From Tepidiforma thermophila (GTDB lineage: Bacteria; Chloroflexota; Dehalococcoidia; Tepidiformales; Tepidiformaceae), in NCBI RefSeq assembly GCF_002563855.1, contig NZ_PDJQ01000001.1, forward strand, positions 1,302,001 through 1,366,000: a stretch of 64,000 nucleotides of DNA, written 5' to 3'. The notes under the pieces were generated by a model. It had not been told where the DNA came from. It ran no database searches and was given only the letters and a program-made list of their open reading frames with translations. Below are positions 4,982 to 19,727 of this stretch, one piece after another. Every line of letters begins with the position of its first letter. Position 1 is the stretch's first letter. A program made the translations under genes and the position numbers.

Positions 4982-5023
4982 GCCCGTAGAATGGGTCGTA
5001 ACCCCGGCGGCAGGAGGCAGCCC

Positions 5024-6313
5024 GTGAACGACGTCCTCGCGATGATCCTCGCCGGCGGACAGGGCGACCGGCTCTCCATCCTCTCCGAGCAGCGCGCCAA
5101 GCCTGCCGTCGTCTTCGGCGGCAACTACCGCATCATCGATTTCGTCCTCTCCAACTGCGCCAACAGCGACATCAGCAAGCTCGCCGTCCTCACCCAGTAC
5201 CGCCCGCGCTCGCTCTTCAACCATATCGGCGCCGGCAGGCCCTGGGGCTACGACACCCCCGAGGGCGGCATCCAGATCCTCCAGCCCTACCTCGGCAAAG
5301 CCGACGCCGACTGGTACCAGGGCACCGCCGACGCCGTCTACCAAAACCTCTACGTCATCGAAGAAGCCCGCGTCCGCGAAATCCTCATCCTCGCCGGCGA
5401 CCATATCTACCTCACCTCCTACCGCAACCTCGTCGCCTACCACCGCTCCCAGGGCGCCGACGCCACTGTCGCCGTCTACAGTGTCCCCCGCAGCGAAGCC
5501 CACCGCTTCGGCGTTCTCGACCTCGACCCCTCCGGCCGCGTCATCGACTTTCAGGAGAAGCCCAAAGAGCCTCGCGGCTCCTGGATCTCCATGGGCATCT
5601 ACGTCTTCAACAAAGATGTCCTCGTCGAACAGCTCCAGGCCGACGCCGACCTCGGCGAAGCCAGCTCCCACGACTTCGGCAAAGACATCATCCCCCGCAT
5701 GTTCCGCACCCACCGCGTCTTCGGCTACCAGTACCACGACTACTGGCGCGATGTCGGCACCATCGAATCCTACTGGGCCGCCCACATGGACCTCCTCCAG
5801 CCCAACCCCCCGCTCGACCTCGAAGACCCCGACCTGAAGCTCCGCACCGCCGGCTCCATCCCCCCGCCGGCGCGCTTCGGCCCCAACGCCCGCGTCACCG
5901 AGTCGCTCATCTCTCCCTCTGCCCGCATCGACGGCGAGGTCTACCGCTCCGTCATCTCCCCCGGCGTCGTCATCGAACCCGGCGCCGTCGTCCGCGAATC
6001 CATCATCCAGCACCGCTGCGTCATCCGCTCCGGCACCGTCATCGACCGCTGCATCCTCGATAAAGAGGTCTCCGTCGGCGCCGGCTGCGTCATCGGCACC
6101 GGCGACCCGAACATCCCCAACCGCGAGCGGCCCGATATCGTCAACACCGGCATCTCCATCATCGGGAAGCGCGCCACCATCCCCTCCGGCCTCCGCATCG
6201 GCCGCAACGTCGTCGTCGGCCCCGGCGTCCACGAAGAACTCGCCGACCTCAAAGAACTCGAATCCGGCGCCTCCGTCCACCCCACCCACATCCCCCTCCA
6301 CCTCTTCGTCTGA
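5024..6313 (+). CDS. glgC: Glucose-1-phosphate adenylyltransferase
   Basis: A 429-residue ADP-glucose pyrophosphorylase, the committing step of glycogen synthesis. The N-terminal nucleotidyltransferase domain has AMILAGGQGDRL at residues 6-17, then KPAVVFGGNYRIIDFVLSNC, and WYQGTADAVYQNL. The middle has the DFQEKPKEP sugar-phosphate Lys motif and YWRDVGTIESYW. The C-terminal third is a left-handed beta-helix of hexapeptide repeats (SPSARI, SPGVVI, PGAVV and so on), as in allosteric GlgC. The start is GTG at 5024 with AGGAGG seven bases upstream; the ATG at 4991 lies before that site and is rejected. No other glycogen gene is adjacent, and DUF2203 overlaps its stop by one base. Confidence 0.93.
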   Translation: MNDVLAMILAGGQGDRLSILSEQRAKPAVVFGGNYRIIDFVLSNCANSDISKLAVLTQYRPRSLFNHIGAGRPWGYDTPEGGIQILQPYLGKADADWYQGTADAVYQNLYVIEEARVREILILAGDHIYLTSYRNLVAYHRSQGADATVAVYSVPRSEAHRFGVLDLDPSGRVIDFQEKPKEPRGSWISMGIYVFNKDVLVEQLQADADLGEASSHDFGKDIIPRMFRTHRVFGYQYHDYWRDVGTIESYWAAHMDLLQPNPPLDLEDPDLKLRTAGSIPPPARFGPNARVTESLISPSARIDGEVYRSVISPGVVIEPGAVVRESIIQHRCVIRSGTVIDRCILDKEVSVGAGCVIGTGDPNIPNRERPDIVNTGISIIGKRATIPSGLRIGRNVVVGPGVHEELADLKELESGASVHPTHIPLHLFV

Positions 6314-7965: not shown

Positions 7966-8017
7966 GCTTCGCAGGCCTCCGCCTGCATCCCGCATCACCC
8001 GCATGGAGGGGACTCCC

Positions 8018-9373
8018 ATGGCAACCCGCAAATTCCTCCTCAGCGACGACCGCATCCCCACCCACTGGTACAACATTGCGGCCGACCTCCCCACGCCGCC
8101 CCCTCCGCCGCTCCACCCCGCCACCCACCAGCCCATCGGCCCCGAAGCGCTCGCCCCGCTCTTCCCCATGGAGCTCATCAAGCAGGAAGTCAGCACCGAG
8201 CGCTACATCGAAATCCCCGAAGAAGTGCGCCGCATCTACAGCATCTGGCGCCCCTCGCCGCTCTTCCGCGCCACCTTCCTTGAGCAGGCGCTCCAGACCC
8301 CGGCCCACATCTATTACAAATACGAAGGCGTCTCCCCCTCCGGCTCCCACAAGCCCAACACCGCCGTCGCCCAGGCCTACTACAACAAACAGGAAGGCGT
8401 GAAGCGCATCGCCACCGAAACCGGCGCCGGCCAGTGGGGGTCCTCCCTCGCATTCGCCTGCCAGATCTTCGGCCTCGAATGCAAGGTCTACATGGTCCGC
8501 GTCTCCTACAACCAGAAACCCTACCGCCGCTCCCTCATGCAGGTCTGGGGCGGCACCGTTGTCCCCAGCCCCAGCCCCGACACCGAAGCCGGCCGCAGAA
8601 TCCTCGCCGAAGACCCCGAAAACTCCGGCTCCCTCGGCATCGCCATCTCCGAGGCCGTCGAAGACGCCGCCATGCGCGAAGACACGAAGTACTCCCTCGG
8701 CAGCGTCCTCAACCACGTCCTCCTCCACCAGACCGTCATCGGCCAGGAGGCCATCGCCCAGATGGAGATGGCCGGCGAATACCCCGACGTCGTCATCGGC
8801 TGCGCCGGCGGCGGCTCAAATGCTGCCGGACTCATCTTCCCCTTCATGAAGGACCGCCTCGCCGGCAAAACCGCCACCCGCTTCCTCGCCGTTGAGCCCG
8901 CCTCCTGCCCCTCTCTTACCAAGGGTGAATACCGCTACGACTTCGGTGATACCGCCGGGCTCACCCCGCTCATGAAGATGTACACCCTCGGCCACACCTT
9001 CATGCCCCCGGGCATCCACGCCGGCGGCCTGCGGTACCACGCCATGGCCCCGCTCATCTGCCACCTCTACGACCAGGGCTACATCGAAGCCCGCGCCTAC
9101 CCCCAGAATGCCTGCTTCGAAGCCGCCACCCTCTTCGCCCGCACCGAAGGTATCGTTCCCGCCCCCGAAAGCTCCCACGCTATCCGCGCCGCCATCGACG
9201 AAGCCATCCAGGCCCGCGAGGAGGGCCGCTCCCGCGTCATCCTCTTCAACCTCTCCGGCCACGGCCTCCTCGACCTCCAGGCCTACGACGACTACCTCGC
9301 CGGCAAACTCATCGACGACTTCTACCCTGAAGAGAAGGTCCGCGAGGCGATGAAGGACCTCCCCGTCATCTAA
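8018..9373 (+). CDS. trpB2: TrpB2-type tryptophan synthase beta-like enzyme
   Basis: A 451-residue PLP enzyme of the TrpB2 group, distinct from the canonical TrpB encoded at 18531. It has the family's long N-terminal extension ([10 protein letters not shown]...), the PLP lysine in SGSHKPNTA at residue 112, [14 protein letters not shown], and the phosphate-binding [11 protein letters not shown]. TrpB2 enzymes make tryptophan from indole and serine without needing TrpA contact, or salvage indole. GGAGGGG precedes the ATG at 8018; the in-frame codon at 7964 lies in the terminator and is rejected. It is the first gene after the Trp T-box, so it is the one most directly tied to tRNA-Trp charging. 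Confidence 0.93.
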
Positions 9374-9431
9374 CGCCCGCGCCAGCTATCCTGAAAGCAC
9401 CACACCCCAGACCACACCCGGAGTACCCGCC

Positions 9432-10103
9432 GTGTCCATGCTCGCCGTCTCCACCGAATTCGAAGCCCGCCTCAAGGCCGTCCTCGAGGCCAAGTCCATG
9501 CTCAAGCACCCCTTCTACGTCGAGTGGACCCAGGGCACCCTCCCCATGCACAAAATGCAGGAGTACGCCCGCCAGTACTACCACTTCGAGGCCGCCTTCC
9601 CGCGCTTCCTCTCCGCCATCCACACCCGCACCGAGAGCCCCAAGATCCGCCAGCTCATCCTCGATAACCTCTGGGACGAAGAGCACGGCGAACGGAACCA
9701 CCCAACCCTCTGGCTCGAATTCGCCCGCGCCGTCGGCGTCGAACCGGACGAGGTCATCACCGCCGAGCTTCGCCCCGAAACCCGCGCCCTCGTCGACCAC
9801 TTCCGCCAGGTGACCTCCACCGCCCCCATCGCCGAGGCGCTCGGCACCCTCTTCGCCTACGAAGGGCAGGTCCCCGCCATCGCCTGGCAGAAGATCAAAG
9901 GCCTCACGGAGTTCTACGGCTTCGAGCCGAAGCAGTTCGAATTCTTCTCCGTCCATCTCGTCGCCGATATCGCCCACTCCGGCGCCGAAATGGAGGCCAT
10001 CGCCGAGGCCTGCACCGATGAAGACGCCGTCATCCGCGCCGTCGACACCGCCTGCGACCGCCTCCTCGCCTTCCTCGACGGCTGCTACGCCGCTGCCGCC
10101 TGA
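9432..10103 (+). CDS. CADD-family protein, putative self-sacrificing p-aminobenzoate synthase
   Basis: A 223-residue, all-helical haem-oxygenase-like di-metal protein. Landmarks are HPFYVEW (Tyr29), a YARQYYHFEAAFPRFLSAIH block, DEEHGERNH (Glu83, His90), YEGQVP (Glu144), QKIKGLTEFYGF (Lys154) and VHLVADIAH (His175, Asp179, His182). Chlamydial CADD (CT610) uses an Fe/Mn site to turn its own tyrosine (Tyr27 there) into pABA with a lysine (Lys152 there) as amino donor. Both residues appear here at a constant +2 offset, with the metal ligands. A TenA/PqqC-like role is the alternative. GTG at 9432 is chosen because GGAG lies 8 bases upstream. It sits 58 bases after trpB2 in the T-box transcription unit. 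Confidence 0.82.
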   Translation: MSMLAVSTEFEARLKAVLEAKSMLKHPFYVEWTQGTLPMHKMQEYARQYYHFEAAFPRFLSAIHTRTESPKIRQLILDNLWDEEHGERNHPTLWLEFARAVGVEPDEVITAELRPETRALVDHFRQVTSTAPIAEALGTLFAYEGQVPAIAWQKIKGLTEFYGFEPKQFEFFSVHLVADIAHSGAEMEAIAEACTDEDAVIRAVDTACDRLLAFLDGCYAAAA

Positions 10104-10104
10104 T

Positions 10105-10555
10105 ATGACGTCCGCCGACCACCACGACATCGAGGCCTGGAACACGGCCATCCGGCTCGCCGCGTCCATCGGCCGCCTGAAGATCGGCTCGAACTTGCGC
10201 GCCTCCCAGGAGGCCCACGAGCGCGCCTTCGAGGCCGCAGGCGAAGCCGCCGCCCGCATCGCCGAAGCCGGCGCCCGCGAGGGGCAGGCCCAGGCCGCCA
10301 TCCTCCGCGAGGCGCGCGGTGCGCTTGCCGCTTGCCGCTCCTGGCTCCACGTCCTCGCCGCGCTCACCAACGAGCCCGAAACCGTCTTCGCCGATGAGCT
10401 CGAACTCATCGAACAGGCCGGCAAACAGATCAACGCCTACCTGCGCGTCGCCGAGCGCGCCGGCGCTGCCGGCGCTCCCGCGCGTCAGCCCGCCGCCGGC
10501 CGCCCGGCCCCCAGTCCGGCACGGGCCGCCCGCCCGGCCGCCTCGGAGGCCCCCG
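10105..10555 (+). CDS. Four-helix-bundle (S23/IVP-like) protein, 3' end undefined
   Basis: The ATG follows the CADD stop by one base. The first 120 or so residues are convincing helices: DIEAWNTAIRLAASIGRL, then ASQEAHERAFEAAGEAAARI, ILREARGALAACRSWLHVL and LELIEQAGKQINAYLR. This matches the pattern of four-helix-bundle proteins related to the 23S rRNA intervening-sequence family, then gives way to an Ala/Pro/Arg-rich tail. The frame has no stop codon before trpS begins at 10556. It stays open through all of trpS and enters the trpE frame. The end given here is simply the base before the trpS start. A TGA exists at 10557-10559, overlapping the trpS GTG, but in another frame, so an indel near the tail is likely. 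Confidence 0.55.
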
Positions 10556-11581
10556 GTGACCGACCGCAAGCGGATCCTCACCGGCATCCGCCCCACCGGC
10601 GCCCTCCACCTCGGCCACTACGCCGGCGCCCTCGAAAACTGGGTGCGGCTCCAGCACGACTACGAGTGCTACTTCCTCATCGCCGACTACCAGGTCTCCG
10701 ACTACGCCGACGACATCCCCCGCGTCCGCGAGGCCGTCTGGGAGGTCGCCCTCGACTGGCTCGCCGTCGGCCTCGACCCCGAAGGCTCCGCCTTTGTCAT
10801 CGAAAGCCTCGTCCCCGAACACGCCGAGCTTGCCACCCTCCTCGGCTGGTTCCTCCCCGTCTCCATGCTCGAGCGCAACCCCACCCTCAAGGCCGAAATG
10901 GCCGCCATGGAGAACCCCGAGGACGGCTCCACCGAGCGCAAGTCCGTGCCCGTCGCCTTCTACACCTACCCGGTCATGCAGGTGGCCAACATCCTCATGC
11001 CCCGCGCCCACCTCGTGCCTGTCGGCGAAGACCAGCTCCCCCACATCGAACTCACCCGCGAAACCGCCCGCCGCTTCAACCGCCGCTTCAAAGAGGTTTT
11101 CCCCGAGCCCGAAGCCCTCGTCGGCCGCGTCCCCCGCCTCGTCGGCATCGACGGCAGCGCCAAGATGAGCAAATCGCGCGGCAACACCATCGACCTCAAA
11201 GACGACGCCGAAACCGTCGCCCGCAAGGTCCGCGCCATGTACGGCGGCCCGCCCCGCGCTGCCAACGAACCCGGCCGCTGCGACGACAACCCCATCTTCC
11301 TCTACCTCCGCGCCTTCGACCCCGACACCGAGGGCCTCGCCGAACTCGAGCGCGAGTACGAAACTCGCGGCGTCCCCAACAAAGTCCTCAAAGATCGCCT
11401 CACGAAGGTCCTCAACGACCTCCTCGACCCCTTCCGCGAGCGCCGCGCCTACTACCAGGCGCACATGCGGCTCGTCCGCGATGCCCTCGCCTCCGGCTCC
11501 GAGCGGATGCGCCGTATCGCCCGCGAAACGATGGACATGGTCCACGACGCCCTCGACCTCAACTACCTCGAGAAGTACTGA
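10556..11581 (+). CDS. trpS: Tryptophanyl-tRNA synthetase
   Basis: A 341-residue class I aminoacyl-tRNA synthetase that charges tRNA-Trp. The HIGH motif is HLGH in GIRPTGALHLGHYAGAL (near residue 17), the KMSKS loop reads KMSKSRGN at about residues 203-210, and the GEDQLPHIELTRE segment is typical of bacterial TrpRS. The start is GTG at 10556 with CGGAGG upstream; the frame remains open further upstream, but no similarity begins before VTDRKRILTGIRPTG. Placing trpS in a unit governed by a Trp T-box is logical, because low charged tRNA-Trp would then raise both tryptophan supply and charging. Its TGA overlaps the trpE ATG (TGATG). Confidence 0.96.
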   Translation: MTDRKRILTGIRPTGALHLGHYAGALENWVRLQHDYECYFLIADYQVSDYADDIPRVREAVWEVALDWLAVGLDPEGSAFVIESLVPEHAELATLLGWFLPVSMLERNPTLKAEMAAMENPEDGSTERKSVPVAFYTYPVMQVANILMPRAHLVPVGEDQLPHIELTRETARRFNRRFKEVFPEPEALVGRVPRLVGIDGSAKMSKSRGNTIDLKDDAETVARKVRAMYGGPPRAANEPGRCDDNPIFLYLRAFDPDTEGLAELEREYETRGVPNKVLKDRLTKVLNDLLDPFRERRAYYQAHMRLVRDALASGSERMRRIARETMDMVHDALDLNYLEKY

Positions 11582-13068
11582 TGCTCCGCCCAACGCTCGA
11601 CGAGGTCCGCCAGCTCGCCCAATCCGGCCAGGGCAACCTCGTGGCCGTTTACCGCGAGGTCACGGCCGACCTCGAGACGCCCGTCTCCGCCTACCTGAAG
11701 GTCGCGAACGGCCCCTACTCCTTCCTCCTCGAATCGGTCGAGGGCGGTGAGCGGCTCGCCCGCTACTCCTTCATCGGCACCCAGCCCTACCGCGTGCTCC
11801 GTACCGGCCCCGGCCAGGAGTGGGAGGGCGACCCCCTCATCCCCGTCGAGCAGGAGCTCGCCCGCTTCCGCCAGGTCGTCACCCCCGGCATCCCCGCCTT
11901 CACCGGCGGAGCCATCGGCTACGTCGCCTACGATGCCGTCCGCCACTTCGAGCCGCGCGTCCGCCCGCCCGAGGTAGATGAAATCGGCATCCCCGAGTCC
12001 ATGTGGCTCTTCACCGATGCCATGGTCGTCTTCGACCACATCCACCACACCATCAAGGTCATCGCCCACTGCCGCCTCGACGGTGACGTCGAGAGCGCCT
12101 ACCGCCAGGCCGCCTTCCGGATCGACGCCATCGTCGAGCGCCTCGAAAACCCCACCGTCCCTCTCCCCCACCAGGACATCGCCGCCGTCCTCCGCACCAA
12201 CGGCCAGGCCGAGTCCAACGTTGGCCGCGAAGGCTACGAGCTGATGGTCGAGAAGATCCGGGAGTACATCATCGCCGGCGACGCCATCCAGGTCGTCCCC
12301 TCCCAGCGCCTCCGCCGCCCCACTGCCGTCCACCCCTTCAACATCTACCGCCAGCTCCGGACCATCAACCCCTCGCCCTACATGTTCTACCTCGACCTCG
12401 GCGGCTTCCAGGTCGTCGGCGCCTCGCCTGAGCTCCTCGTCCGCGTCGAAGACGGCATCGTCACCACTCACCCTATCGCCGGCACCCGCCCCCGCGGTGC
12501 AACCCCCGAAGAGGACGAACGCCTCGCCGCCGAACTCCTCGCCGACGAAAAGGAGCGCGCTGAGCACATCATGCTCGTCGACCTCGGCCGCAACGATATC
12601 GGCCGCGTCGCCCGCCCCGGCACCGTGCGCGTCGATAGCCTGATGCACATCGAGAAGTACTCCCACGTCATGCACATCGTCTCCAACGTCTCCGGCCAGC
12701 TCGCCCCCGACAAAACCCGCTTCGATGCCTTCCGCTCGGTCTTCCCCGCCGGGACCCTCTCCGGCGCCCCCAAGGTCCGCGCCATGGAGATCATCGCCGA
12801 GCTCGAACCCTCCCGCCGCGGCATCTACGGCGGCGCCGTCGGCTATGCCAGCTTCGCCGGCAGCCTCGATACCTGCATCGCCATCCGCACCATGGTCGTC
12901 AAGGACGGCGTCGCCTACCTCCAGGCCGGCGGCGGCATCGTCTACGACTCCGTCCCCGCAACCGAATACATGGAAACCGTCAACAAGATGCGCGCCCTCA
13001 TGCGCGCCATCGACCAGGCCGAAGTCGCCGCCGCCCAGCTCAAAACCGGGAGTATCGGCTACGGCTGA
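11581..13068 (+). CDS. trpE: Anthranilate synthase component I
   Basis: A 495-residue chorismate-binding enzyme that, with TrpG, converts chorismate and glutamine to anthranilate. The N-terminal domain carries SFLLES with a Ser ten residues later (LLES-V-GGERLARYS), the motif tied to feedback inhibition by tryptophan. The catalytic half has TTHPIAGTRPRGAT, the DLGRNDIGRVA segment, FPAGTLSGAPKVRAMEII and RRGIYGGAVGY, all diagnostic of the family. Full-length TrpE size and the Trp-binding motif favour trpE over pabB. It overlaps the trpS stop by one base and has a 16-base gap to the first Nudix-like gene. Its frame is the same as the open frame of the four-helix-bundle gene. Confidence 0.96.
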   Translation: MLRPTLDEVRQLAQSGQGNLVAVYREVTADLETPVSAYLKVANGPYSFLLESVEGGERLARYSFIGTQPYRVLRTGPGQEWEGDPLIPVEQELARFRQVVTPGIPAFTGGAIGYVAYDAVRHFEPRVRPPEVDEIGIPESMWLFTDAMVVFDHIHHTIKVIAHCRLDGDVESAYRQAAFRIDAIVERLENPTVPLPHQDIAAVLRTNGQAESNVGREGYELMVEKIREYIIAGDAIQVVPSQRLRRPTAVHPFNIYRQLRTINPSPYMFYLDLGGFQVVGASPELLVRVEDGIVTTHPIAGTRPRGATPEEDERLAAELLADEKERAEHIMLVDLGRNDIGRVARPGTVRVDSLMHIEKYSHVMHIVSNVSGQLAPDKTRFDAFRSVFPAGTLSGAPKVRAMEIIAELEPSRRGIYGGAVGYASFAGSLDTCIAIRTMVVKDGVAYLQAGGGIVYDSVPATEYMETVNKMRALMRAIDQAEVAAAQLKTGSIGYG

Positions 13069-14993: not shown

Positions 14994-15328
14994 GCGCCCC
15001 CTATCCGCCCCTCCAGAAGTACATCGCCCATGTCGCCGTCCGCTTCTACCGTTCCGGCGGCGTCGAGCTCGCCCTCGTGCCGCTCCTCCGCGAATCCGCA
15101 CCCTTCACCCGCTCCGCCGGCGACGGCTACTTCCTCGTCGCCCTCATCGGCGAGCCCGGGACCGCCTACCCCCTCGACCTCCGTTCGCCGGCCGCGCTCG
15201 ACCCCGCCTACCTCGCCGCCAAGTTCCGCCTCGACCGCCGCGGCTACGGCTACACGCCCGAAGAGCTCGCCGCCGTCCTCCGCCTCATCGCCGATGATCT
15301 CCACCGGGAGGAAGCCCTCGACCAGTGA
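14990..15328 (+). CDS. Conserved-looking small protein of unknown function
   Basis: A 112-residue soluble protein I do not recognise. It starts [20 protein letters not shown], has a beta-rich core ([28 protein letters not shown]) and ends with a helix [21 protein letters not shown]. There are no cysteines, membrane segments or catalytic motifs. The ATG overlaps the HAD stop (ATGA) and its stop overlaps the trpG GTG, so it is translated as part of the operon and is unlikely to be spurious. The strand-helix layout would fit a small regulatory or binding domain, which is inference only. Confidence 0.6.
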
Positions 15329-15912
15329 CCACCCTGCTCATCGATAACTACGACTCCTTCACCTACAACCTCTACCAGTACCTCTGCGAACTCGGCGCCG
15401 ATGTCCGCGTCTTCCGCAACGACCAGGTCACCCTCGAGGAGTGCCTCGCGCTCGAGCCCGACCACGTCGTCATCTCCCCCGGCCCCGGCGACCCCGACGA
15501 CGCCGGTATCTCCCGCGATGTCATCCGCGCCTTCGCCGGCAGGGTCCCCGTCCTCGGCGTCTGTCTCGGCCACCAGTGCATCTACGACGTCTACGGCGGC
15601 ACCATCGCCGGCGCCGGCGAAATCAAGCACGGCAAAACCTCGCAAATCACCCACGATGGCCGCGGCGTCTTCGCCGGCATCCCCTCGCCCTTCGAAGCCG
15701 TCCGCTACCACTCCCTCTGCGGCACCCCCGAGACGCTCCCGCCCGAGCTCGAAGTAACCGCCCGCTCTGAATCCGGCATCATCATGGGCGTCCGCCACCG
15801 CCGCTACACCGTCGAAGGCGTCCAGTTCCACCCCGAGTCGATCGCCACGCAATACGGCAAGGAGCTCCTCGCGAACTTCCTCCGCATGGAGGGTGGCGAA
15901 TGGCCCGCCTGA
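15325..15912 (+). CDS. trpG: Anthranilate synthase component II (glutamine amidotransferase)
   Basis: A 195-residue class I glutaminase that supplies ammonia to TrpE. It has [13 protein letters not shown] at the N-terminus, the oxyanion [10 protein letters not shown] loop, the nucleophile Cys in GVCLGHQCI and the His-Glu pair in [10 protein letters not shown]. The TrpG/PabA type may serve anthranilate and p-aminobenzoate synthesis alike. That bears on the CADD protein upstream, because a PabB partner is not seen in this window. The start is GTG at 15325, overlapping the previous TGA. It is separated from trpE by four accessory genes, which is unusual, as trpE and trpG are normally adjacent or fused. 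Confidence 0.95.
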
Positions 15913-15955
15913 TTCGCCACACTGGAACCTGCATCCCTGCCCGGGGTCCCGCCTG

Positions 15956-16975
15956 ATGGCCGTCCAGGAAGCAATCAAGTCCCTCGTCGACGCTGGAGAC
16001 CTCCCCCCGGCGCTCGCCGCCGCCGCCCTCGAGGAGCTCATGACCGGCGCCGCCACCCCCGCCCAGGTCGGCGCCTTCCTCGCCGCATGGCGCATCCGCG
16101 GCGAATCAGCCCCCGCAATCGCCGCCTGCCTCGAGGTCATGCTCCGCCATGCCGAGCCCGTGCCCGCCGCCGGCACCATCGACATCTGCGGCACCGGCGG
16201 CGACGGCATCGATACCATCAACGTCTCAACCGCCGCCGGATTCATCGTCGCCGCCTGCGGCGTCCGCGTCGCCAAGCACGGCAACCGTGCCGCCAGCTCG
16301 AAGTGCGGCAGCGCCGATGTCCTCGAAGCCCTCGGCGCCCGCATCGACCTCGATGGGCAGGCCATCGCCCGCATCATCGATGCCTGCAACTTCTGCTTCC
16401 TCTTCGCCCAGCGCATGCACCCCGCCATGCGCCACGTCGGCGGCGCCCGCCGCGAAATCGGCATCCGCACCGTCTTCAACATCCTCGGCCCGCTCTCCAA
16501 CCCAACCGCGCCCGCCCGCCAGCTCGTCGGCGTCGGCGCCGCCCCCCTCGGCCCGCTCGTCGCCGAGGCCCTCGCCCTCCGCGGCGTTGAATACGCCCTT
16601 GTCGTTCACTCCGAAGACGGCCTCGATGAAATCAGCCCCGCGGCCCCGACCCGCGCATGGGTCGTCGCCGATGGCGCCGTCGCCGAGCGCACCATCAGCC
16701 CTGCCGATTTCGGCCTGCCCACCGCCCCACTGTCCGCCGTCGCCGGGGGCGACGCCGCAGCCAACGCCGGCGACATCCTCGCCATCCTCGATGGCGCTGA
16801 AGGCCCGAAGACCGACTTCACCCTCATGAACGCCGCCGCCGCCCTCGTAGTCGCCAGCCGCGCCGCCGATTTCCGCGAAGGCGTCCGCCTCGCCCGCGAG
16901 GCCGTCGCCTCGGGCCGCGCCCGCGAAGTCCTCGATACCTACATCGCGCTCTCCCGGGAGGCCGCCGGTGGGTAG
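15956..16975 (+). CDS. trpD: Anthranilate phosphoribosyltransferase
   Basis: A 339-residue enzyme that joins anthranilate and PRPP. Diagnostic blocks are DICGTGGDGIDTINVSTAA (PRPP pyrophosphate loop), KHGNRAASSKCGSADVLEALG, FLFAQRMHPAMRHV, RTVFNILGPLSNP and the metal-binding region HSEDGLDEIS. Length and domain order are normal for TrpD. I used the ATG at 15956, in frame with a longer upstream reading frame that overlaps trpG and gives no family similarity. The ribosome-binding site is weak (CGGGG). The 3' end overlaps trpC by 8 bases. Confidence 0.96.
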   Translation: MAVQEAIKSLVDAGDLPPALAAAALEELMTGAATPAQVGAFLAAWRIRGESAPAIAACLEVMLRHAEPVPAAGTIDICGTGGDGIDTINVSTAAGFIVAACGVRVAKHGNRAASSKCGSADVLEALGARIDLDGQAIARIIDACNFCFLFAQRMHPAMRHVGGARREIGIRTVFNILGPLSNPTAPARQLVGVGAAPLGPLVAEALALRGVEYALVVHSEDGLDEISPAAPTRAWVVADGAVAERTISPADFGLPTAPLSAVAGGDAAANAGDILAILDGAEGPKTDFTLMNAAAALVVASRAADFREGVRLAREAVASGRAREVLDTYIALSREAAGG

Positions 16976-17801
16976 CCCCACCATCCTCGACACCATCCTC
17001 GCCCGCCGCGAACGCGACGTCGCCGAGGCGAAGGCCGCCGTGCCCCCGTCCGAGCTCGAAGCCCGCCTCGCCGAGGCTCCGCCCGCCATCGACTTCATCG
17101 CCCGCCTCCGCCGCGACGCCCCCATCGCCGTCATCGCCGAGGTCAAGCGCGCCTCCCCCAGCAAGGGCGACATCGCCCCCGGCATGGATGCCGCCGCCCA
17201 GGCCCTCCGCTACGCCCGCGGCGGCGCAAGCGCTATCTCCGTCCTCACCGAACCCACCTGGTTCAAGGGAACCCTCGCCGATATGGCCGCGGTCCGCGCC
17301 GCCGTCGAAGAACTCGGTCCGGACCGTCCCGCAATCCTCCGCAAGGACTTCATCATCGACGACTACCAGCTGCTCGAAGCCCGCGTCCACGGCGCCGATG
17401 CCGTCCTCCTCATCGTCGCCGCGCTCGACGACGCCCGGCTCCGGCACCTGTACGCCGCAGCCGTCCGGCTGGGCATGCAGGCCCTCGTGGAGGTCAACAA
17501 CGCCGACGAAATGTCCCGCGCCGCCGAACTCGGCGCCGCCCTGGTCGGCATCAACAACCGCGACCTCCGCAGCTTCCGGGTCGACCTCGCAACCACCGAC
17601 CGCCTCGCCAGCCTCGCCCCGCCCGGTGCCACGCTCGCCGCCCTCAGCGGCATCAGCTCCCGCGCCGATGTCGAACGCTTCGCCGCCGTAGGCGCCGCAG
17701 CTGTCCTCGTCGGCGAATCCCTCATGGTTGCGCCGGACCCCGCCGCAAAGATCCGCGAACTCCGCGGCGTCCCTGCAGCCGCCCCCGGGGCCGCCCCATG
17801 A
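16968..17801 (+). CDS. trpC: Indole-3-glycerol phosphate synthase
   Basis: A 277-residue TIM-barrel enzyme that cyclises CdRP to indole-3-glycerol phosphate. It shows the N-terminal TILDTILARRERDVAEAK helix, IAVIAEVKRASPSKGDI (catalytic Lys), SVLTEPTWFKGTL, ILRKDFIIDDYQLLEAR, VEVNNADEM, GINNRDLRSF and SGISSRADVE, in the expected order. The GTG start at 16968 lies inside the end of trpD. It overlaps trpF by ATGA. It is monofunctional, unlike the TrpC-TrpF fusion of enterobacteria. Confidence 0.96.
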   Translation: MGSPTILDTILARRERDVAEAKAAVPPSELEARLAEAPPAIDFIARLRRDAPIAVIAEVKRASPSKGDIAPGMDAAAQALRYARGGASAISVLTEPTWFKGTLADMAAVRAAVEELGPDRPAILRKDFIIDDYQLLEARVHGADAVLLIVAALDDARLRHLYAAAVRLGMQALVEVNNADEMSRAAELGAALVGINNRDLRSFRVDLATTDRLASLAPPGATLAALSGISSRADVERFAAVGAAAVLVGESLMVAPDPAAKIRELRGVPAAAPGAAP

Positions 17802-18530
17802 CCCTCGTCAAAATCTGCGGCATCCGCGACGCAGCCACCGCCCTCGCCGCCGCCGATGCCGGCGCCGACTTCATCGGCCTCGTCTTCGCCGAGTCCCGCC
17901 GCCAGGTTACCCCGCAGGACTGCCACGACATCGTCGAGGCTATCGCCGGCCGCCGCCGCACTGAAACCCCGCTCGCCCTTTCGGGCCCCGCCCTCGGCGA
18001 AGTCTCGGCCCGCAGCTGGTTCCCCGCCTGGGCCGACGCCATCGAACTCGCCCTCGCCCGCGCCCGGCCCCTCCTCGTCGGCGTCTTCGCCCGCATGACC
18101 TCCGACGAGGTCAACGACATCGCCGAGGCCGCCCGCATCGACCTCGTCCAGCTCTCCGGCGGAGAAGATAACGCCTTCGTCCGCGCCATCCGCCGCCCGG
18201 TCCTCCGCACCATCCACGTCCGCCAGGGCGATGACCCCGCCGACATCACCGAGCGCATCGTGCCCGGCCTCGCCGCCGGAACCCTGCTCGATACCGCCCA
18301 CGACACCGCCCTCGGTGGTACCGGCCTCGCCTTCGACTGGTCCATCGCCGAAGACGTTGCCGCCCGCTTCCCCATCATCCTCGCGGGCGGCCTCACCCTC
18401 GAAAACGTCGCCGAGGCGGTCCGCACCGTCCGCCCCTGGGCGGTCGATGTCTCCTCCGGCGTCGAAACCGGCCGCGTCAAAGACCCCGAGAAAATCCGCG
18501 CCTTCATCCGCGCGGCGAAAGGTGCCAGCC

Positions 18531-18541
<11 letters not shown>
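17798..18541 (+). CDS. trpF: Phosphoribosylanthranilate isomerase, with an insertion
   Basis: A 247-residue TIM barrel for the Amadori rearrangement of PRA to CdRP. The catalytic Cys lies in VKICGIRD at residues 4-11, followed by [22 protein letters not shown] where the family usually has [22 protein letters not shown] and [11 protein letters not shown]. Most bacterial TrpF proteins are near 200 residues. Here roughly 40 extra residues lie between [12 protein letters not shown] and the LLVGVFARM strand (about residues 52-90), rich in Ala/Trp and hydrophobic. The insertion is in frame and the catalytic residues are intact, so the enzyme should be active. Confidence 0.92.

Positions 18542-19723
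<1,182 letters not shown>

Positions 19724-19727
<4 letters not shown>

Follow-up and report, generated by a model that had tools for sequence, protein, structure and literature searches.

Within the trp operon of Tepidiforma thermophila lies a gene that an earlier note on this DNA had read as a CADD-type, self-sacrificing p-aminobenzoate (pABA) synthase. The locus raises two questions, whether this gene is the source of the organism's pABA and whether its product does anything else. We addressed them with the window (the whole stretch of 64,000 nucleotides that was analysed), the complete genome and the genomes of relatives. The features concerned are collected in Table 1.

Table 1. Features of the window (first eight lines), of its genome and of related genomes
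Feature	Position	Strand	Basis or remark
TrpB-like PLP enzyme (trpB2), upstream of CADD	8003..9373	+	PRK12391 766 bits, TIGR01415 694 bits
GGAG, likely ribosome-binding site	9420..9423	+	sequence; 8 nt upstream of GTG 9432
Gene of the CADD/NePabS-type self-sacrificing pABA synthase family	9432..10103	+	TIGR04305, PDB matches, fold, residues
Small helical ORF between CADD and trpS	10105..10569 (end approximate)	+	conserved in most relatives
trpS, tryptophan--tRNA ligase	10556..11581	+	TIGR00233 249 bits, cut-off 177
trpE, anthranilate synthase component I	11581..13068	+	TIGR00564 588.5 bits, cut-off 518
trpG, glutamine amidotransferase	15325..15912	+	TIGR00566 238 bits, cut-off 121
trpD, trpC, trpF, trpB	15893..19727	+	ORFs recognised from sequence; order conserved in relatives
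DHPS-like genes (G000)	C1:1175544-1176311 and C1:1238200-1238946		
Lys-less CADD orthologues	L035 1627-2295; L036 10001-10669; L037 8591-9259; L015; L230; L016		same trp-operon place
Fused PabB-PabC, Val-clade genomes	L182 7346-9094; L184 7624-9510	-	

Family membership and active-site residues

The open reading frame runs from a GTG start to a TGA stop over 223 codons (223 amino acids). Its product scored 228.5 bits against NCBIfam TIGR04305 (fol_rel_CADD), for which the curated cut-off is 200, and a phmmer search of the PDB returned as best match 9pj4, '4-aminobenzoate synthase' (7.8e-50), whose sequence fits NePabS, together with CT610/CADD 1rcw (7e-46); both matches are far beyond chance. 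The AlphaFold2 model (pLDDT 93) matched 1rcw with a Z of 32.4 and an rmsd of 1.2 over 212 residues, and the model and the ligand residues together indicated an HDO fold with a dimetal site of three His and three carboxylates. Judged by its sequence, this is a real gene for a member of the CADD/NePabS-type self-sacrificing pABA synthase family, in agreement with the earlier note.

Alignment revealed that Tyr29 (codon 9516-9518) corresponds to the sacrificial tyrosine, CADD Tyr27 and NePabS Tyr25, and that Lys154 (codon 9891-9893) corresponds to the amino donor, CADD Lys152 and NePabS Lys159, as had been proposed for both. Tyr45, Tyr49 and Trp94 are the counterparts of the NePabS relay residues Tyr41, Tyr45 and Trp99, whose mutation abolished or lowered pABA formation (PMC11965152). 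No Lys-bearing relative departs from Tyr29, Lys154 or the relay residues, and all six metal ligands, Glu83, His90, Glu144, His175, Asp179 and His182, are conserved in the alignments, in line with the earlier note's mention of the ligands. The offset to CADD numbering, said to be constant, is +2 through Lys154 and drops to +1 at His175, Asp179 and His182 owing to a one-residue gap near position 165.

The same Tyr, Lys, relay residues and ligands are found in NePabS (NE1434 of Nitrosomonas europaea; PMC11965152; PDB 9pj4), whose host is likewise aerobic, free-living and not using PabB/PabC, but NePabS contains an additional loop, some 10 residues long, and its gene adjoins a glyA-like gene while the window gene lies in the trp operon. 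CADD of Chlamydia trachomatis (CT610; Mn/Fe; PDB 1rcw, 8va9) has the same three His and three carboxylate ligands and is about 39% identical to the window protein; its gene clusters with folate genes rather than with trp genes, and the protein is reported to act on host apoptosis. At the two metal-tuning sites the window protein carries Tyr143 and Phe171, CADD carries Tyr141 and Tyr170, and NePabS carries Phe148 and Phe177. The window pair is the pattern of NePabS F148Y, which is reported to work about equally well with Fe/Fe and Mn/Fe (PMC11965152), so that by analogy a cambialistic enzyme working with Fe/Fe or Mn/Fe is predicted, in contrast to the Fe/Fe preference of NePabS.

The trp operon and the pABA and folate genes of the genome

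The location in the trp operon was confirmed, with the order TrpB-like gene, CADD, small ORF, trpS and trpE, then trpG, trpD, trpC, trpF and trpB. Both scores of the trpB2 product are over their cut-offs, and this gene is kept 5' of CADD in much of Tepidiformaceae. Wherever a Tepidiformaceae locus was intact and of sufficient length, trpS and trpE come after CADD, and the small ORF usually lies between CADD and trpS. The small ORF, for which no Pfam or NCBIfam match was found, begins 2 bases past the CADD stop. Most relatives show an overlap of the CADD stop with the start of the next gene, in the motif TGATGG, which suggests translational coupling. In the window genome the frame of the small ORF, which is not that of trpS, stays open for 988 codons to the trpE stop (10105-13068). 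Its counterparts in relatives close after about 142-170 codons; the long open frame may reflect an indel or a GC-rich open frame. Its place in the operon probably lets CADD be expressed together with the genes of aromatic biosynthesis. Elsewhere in Chloroflexota, CADD genes lack trp neighbours, and outside Tepidiformaceae the sampled flanking genes showed no common theme and included no folate gene.

A search for pabB and pabC throughout the genome, as the earlier note had advised, was made by family in the 2.74 Mb single contig of Tepidiforma. Exactly two proteins with a chorismate-binding domain were found, TrpE of the window and MenF. TrpE scored 588 bits to trpE_most (cut-off 518) and 300 bits to pabB (cut-off 328), and so fails the latter. 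MenF scored 281 bits to isochor_syn (cut-off 225) and adjoins MenD, in a gene run that we take to be a menaquinone operon, and it was rejected as PabB. The sole class-IV aminotransferase is IlvE (380 bits, cut-off 279) and was rejected as PabC. Neither a PabB distinct from TrpE nor a PabC lyase was found in the 64-kb window or in the whole genome, so that there is no complete pabABC set, and the lack of a PabB partner that had been remarked on for the window extends to the genome.

Two DHPS-like genes are present, one of them adjoining an ORF that is presumably FolK. The pABA-using step is therefore there and the canonical pABA-making pathway is not, as in a host that makes folate without that route. 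Most genomes of the order likewise have two DHPS-like genes; genus g3 (G077, G189), in which PabB and PabC-like genes are separate, shows only one. The literature search turned up nothing that treats folate in Tepidiforma.

Distribution of Lys154, PabB and PabC among relatives

In the class sample of 119 genomes, from which two Lys-less genomes were left out of the comparison, PabC-like genes, defined by a score of 140 bits or more against a class PabC, occurred in none of the 13 genomes with a Lys-bearing CADD over the cut-off and in 43 of the 104 others (Fisher p 0.002). Many genomes have neither gene, and CADD is thus one of several ways to lack PabC.

The order sample comprised 38 genomes. 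An intact Lys-bearing CADD was found in 23 of them, and all 23 lacked PabB and also PabC, their chorismate-binding proteins being only TrpE, or TrpE and MenF. Six genomes carry a Lys-less copy, with Val at position 154 in G160, G162 and G164 and Thr in G077, G189 and G107, and five of these six have PabB. In the sixth, G107, whose assembly consists of 230 contigs, a contig end truncates the Lys-less gene to a fragment, and no PabB was found. The contrast between Lys-bearing genomes and Lys-less genomes with PabB gave a Fisher p of 5e-5, although the genomes are related and the real sample is therefore two lineages. One genus holds both kinds, Val copies with PabBC and Lys-bearing copies without PabB (G161, G163).

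The Val genomes carry a PabB-PabC fusion, which in the two that were scanned scored 340 and 333 bits to pabB (cut-off 328) and in the third was recognised by BLAST match. In G077 a PabB of 369 bits to pabB is separate from the PabC-like gene. The fused type (L182, L184) as against the separate genes of the Thr-clade genome (L185) suggests separate acquisitions.

Alignment of the Lys-less orthologues revealed Val or Thr at position 154 (L035, L036, L037, L015, L230) in place of the amino-donor lysine. Both clades also carry Y49F and Y143F, and the Val clade has Y45F in addition. The 67 Lys-bearing proteins share 30 invariant columns, Lys154 being one of them as the criterion of selection. Of these columns the Val clade has changed only Tyr45, Tyr49 and Lys154, and the Thr clade four, Trp32, Tyr49, Lys154 and Gly157; Tyr29 and every metal ligand are unchanged in both. 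Lys156 found no support as a replacement donor, since it is kept in the Lys-less copies yet is unconserved in the Lys-bearing ones.

The CADD gene tree alone cannot decide how often Lys154 was lost; a quick tree separated the Val and Thr clades and a careful tree joined them at 50/53 support. The tree of the linked trpB2-trpS-trpE genes rejected a single Lys-less clade (AU p 8e-5 without G107 and 5e-10 with it) and thereby argues against a single loss. Lys154, Tyr49 and Tyr143 thus appear to have changed in parallel, and the trp-gene trees appear to imply at least two losses of Lys154; transfer of the CADD gene between lineages instead of parallel change is less likely.

The Lys-less genes are single copies with dN/dS of 0.03-0.13 in the same operon place, and a model of such a copy retains the fold (Z 32.2 to 1rcw). 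They are under purifying selection and are not decaying. They score 201-209 bits to TIGR04305, just above the cut-off of 200, and automatic annotation would therefore name them CADD.

In the deposited genome of Tepidiforma flava (L049, L232) the gene is broken, and since the trpB2 and hydrolase genes beside it are broken too, a true pseudogene is unlikely and assembly indels, not decay, are likely. G166 (97% complete) is without CADD, PabB and PabC but has DHPS. At its trp locus (L233 about 5021-5103) CADD is cleanly absent, with about 80 bp between the TrpB-like gene and the small ORF. Genomes of Tepidiformaceae can therefore lack every known pABA route, and arguments from absence are not proof.

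Function of the window protein

The window gene very probably encodes a single-turnover, O2- and metal-dependent pABA synthase that would be the organism's pABA source for folate. The strongest evidence for the pABA role is that relatives with canonical pabB/pabC lost Lys154. By analogy with CADD and NePabS, the dimetal site would react with O2 and a radical would pass via aromatic residues to Tyr29, whose side chain would be cut off to give the pABA ring and its carboxyl carbon, while Lys154 would supply the amino group. The yield would be one pABA per protein molecule, at the cost of one 223-residue protein each. Tepidiforma species are strictly aerobic (PMC10284905), which is what an O2-dependent enzyme requires. 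The NePabS orthologue complements an E. coli pabABC mutant, and Chloroflexi had already been listed, by prediction from sequence, among the likely carriers of self-sacrificing pABA synthases (PMC11965152).

The earlier note had further proposed a route that avoids chorismate and thereby uncouples folate from tryptophan supply. This was overstated and holds only for the last step. Bacterial tyrosine is normally made from chorismate via prephenate, and with the pABA ring drawn from a protein tyrosine the draw on chorismate would be moved, not removed.

Since the Lys-less orthologues are under purifying selection, the window protein may have another role too. They may have gained a new function or kept an old second one, and if it was kept the window protein would share it. 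That the self-sacrificing enzyme was switched off at least twice beside PabB/PabC while the dimetal protein was kept, with a second, non-sacrificial function possible and the window protein included, we hold as plausible but tentative. The more specific reading that the protein is a pABA synthase with a second, trp-linked role as catalytic oxidase, chaperone or regulator, of which the Lys-less orthologues keep only the latter, is possible though doubtful. The constraint on the Lys-less copies, their single number and fixed operon place, and their retention of all ligands, Tyr29 and the fold are in its favour, as is the reported moonlighting of C. trachomatis CADD (PMC11965152), but these facts would also follow, with no second role for the window protein, if the Lys-less copies took on a new function once Lys154 had gone, and no partner or substrate is known.

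Alternatively, pABA could come from TrpE/TrpG doubling as aminodeoxychorismate synthase together with a lyase that escaped recognition, and the HDO protein would have a different task. TrpG-type subunits are often common to the tryptophan and pABA pathways, and G166 shows no other visible pABA route. Nevertheless we consider this improbable, because TrpE passes trpE_most and falls under pabB, the genome has no PabC, and the coupling of Lys154 to the absence of PabB would be left unexplained. It is most improbable that the protein is instead another type of HDO enzyme, like PqqC, TenA or BesC, with a free small molecule as substrate. PqqC, BesC, UndA and TenA share the heme-oxygenase-like fold, and the HDO oxidases among them the dimetal site, but the window protein scored 59.5 bits to the PqqC model (cut-off 240), 54.7 to BesC (cut-off 500) and 16.9 to TenA (cut-off 130), all listed non-CADD structures had Z below 27 against about 32 for CADD, and Tyr29, Lys154 and the relay residues do not vary among Lys-bearing relatives.

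To our knowledge the self-sacrificing pABA synthases characterised so far number only two. The window protein is likely a third, from aerobic thermophiles, and no other pABA source is apparent in its complete genome. In the papers searched we found neither the trp-operon setting nor Lys-less orthologues accompanied by PabB/PabC. As far as those papers show, the setting and the repeated loss of the sacrificial machinery beside PabB/PabC have not been described. The sister genomes with PabB/PabC amount to natural mutagenesis, having lost residues found essential in vitro, a loss that provides evolutionary evidence for a role of these residues in pABA synthesis in vivo. A match to TIGR04305 alone is no ground for the label pABA synthase, and the lysine needs checking. 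The Lys-less orthologues are ready tools for asking about further roles of CADD-type proteins. If a second, non-sacrificial function is true of these proteins, it would be one that outlives pABA synthesis.
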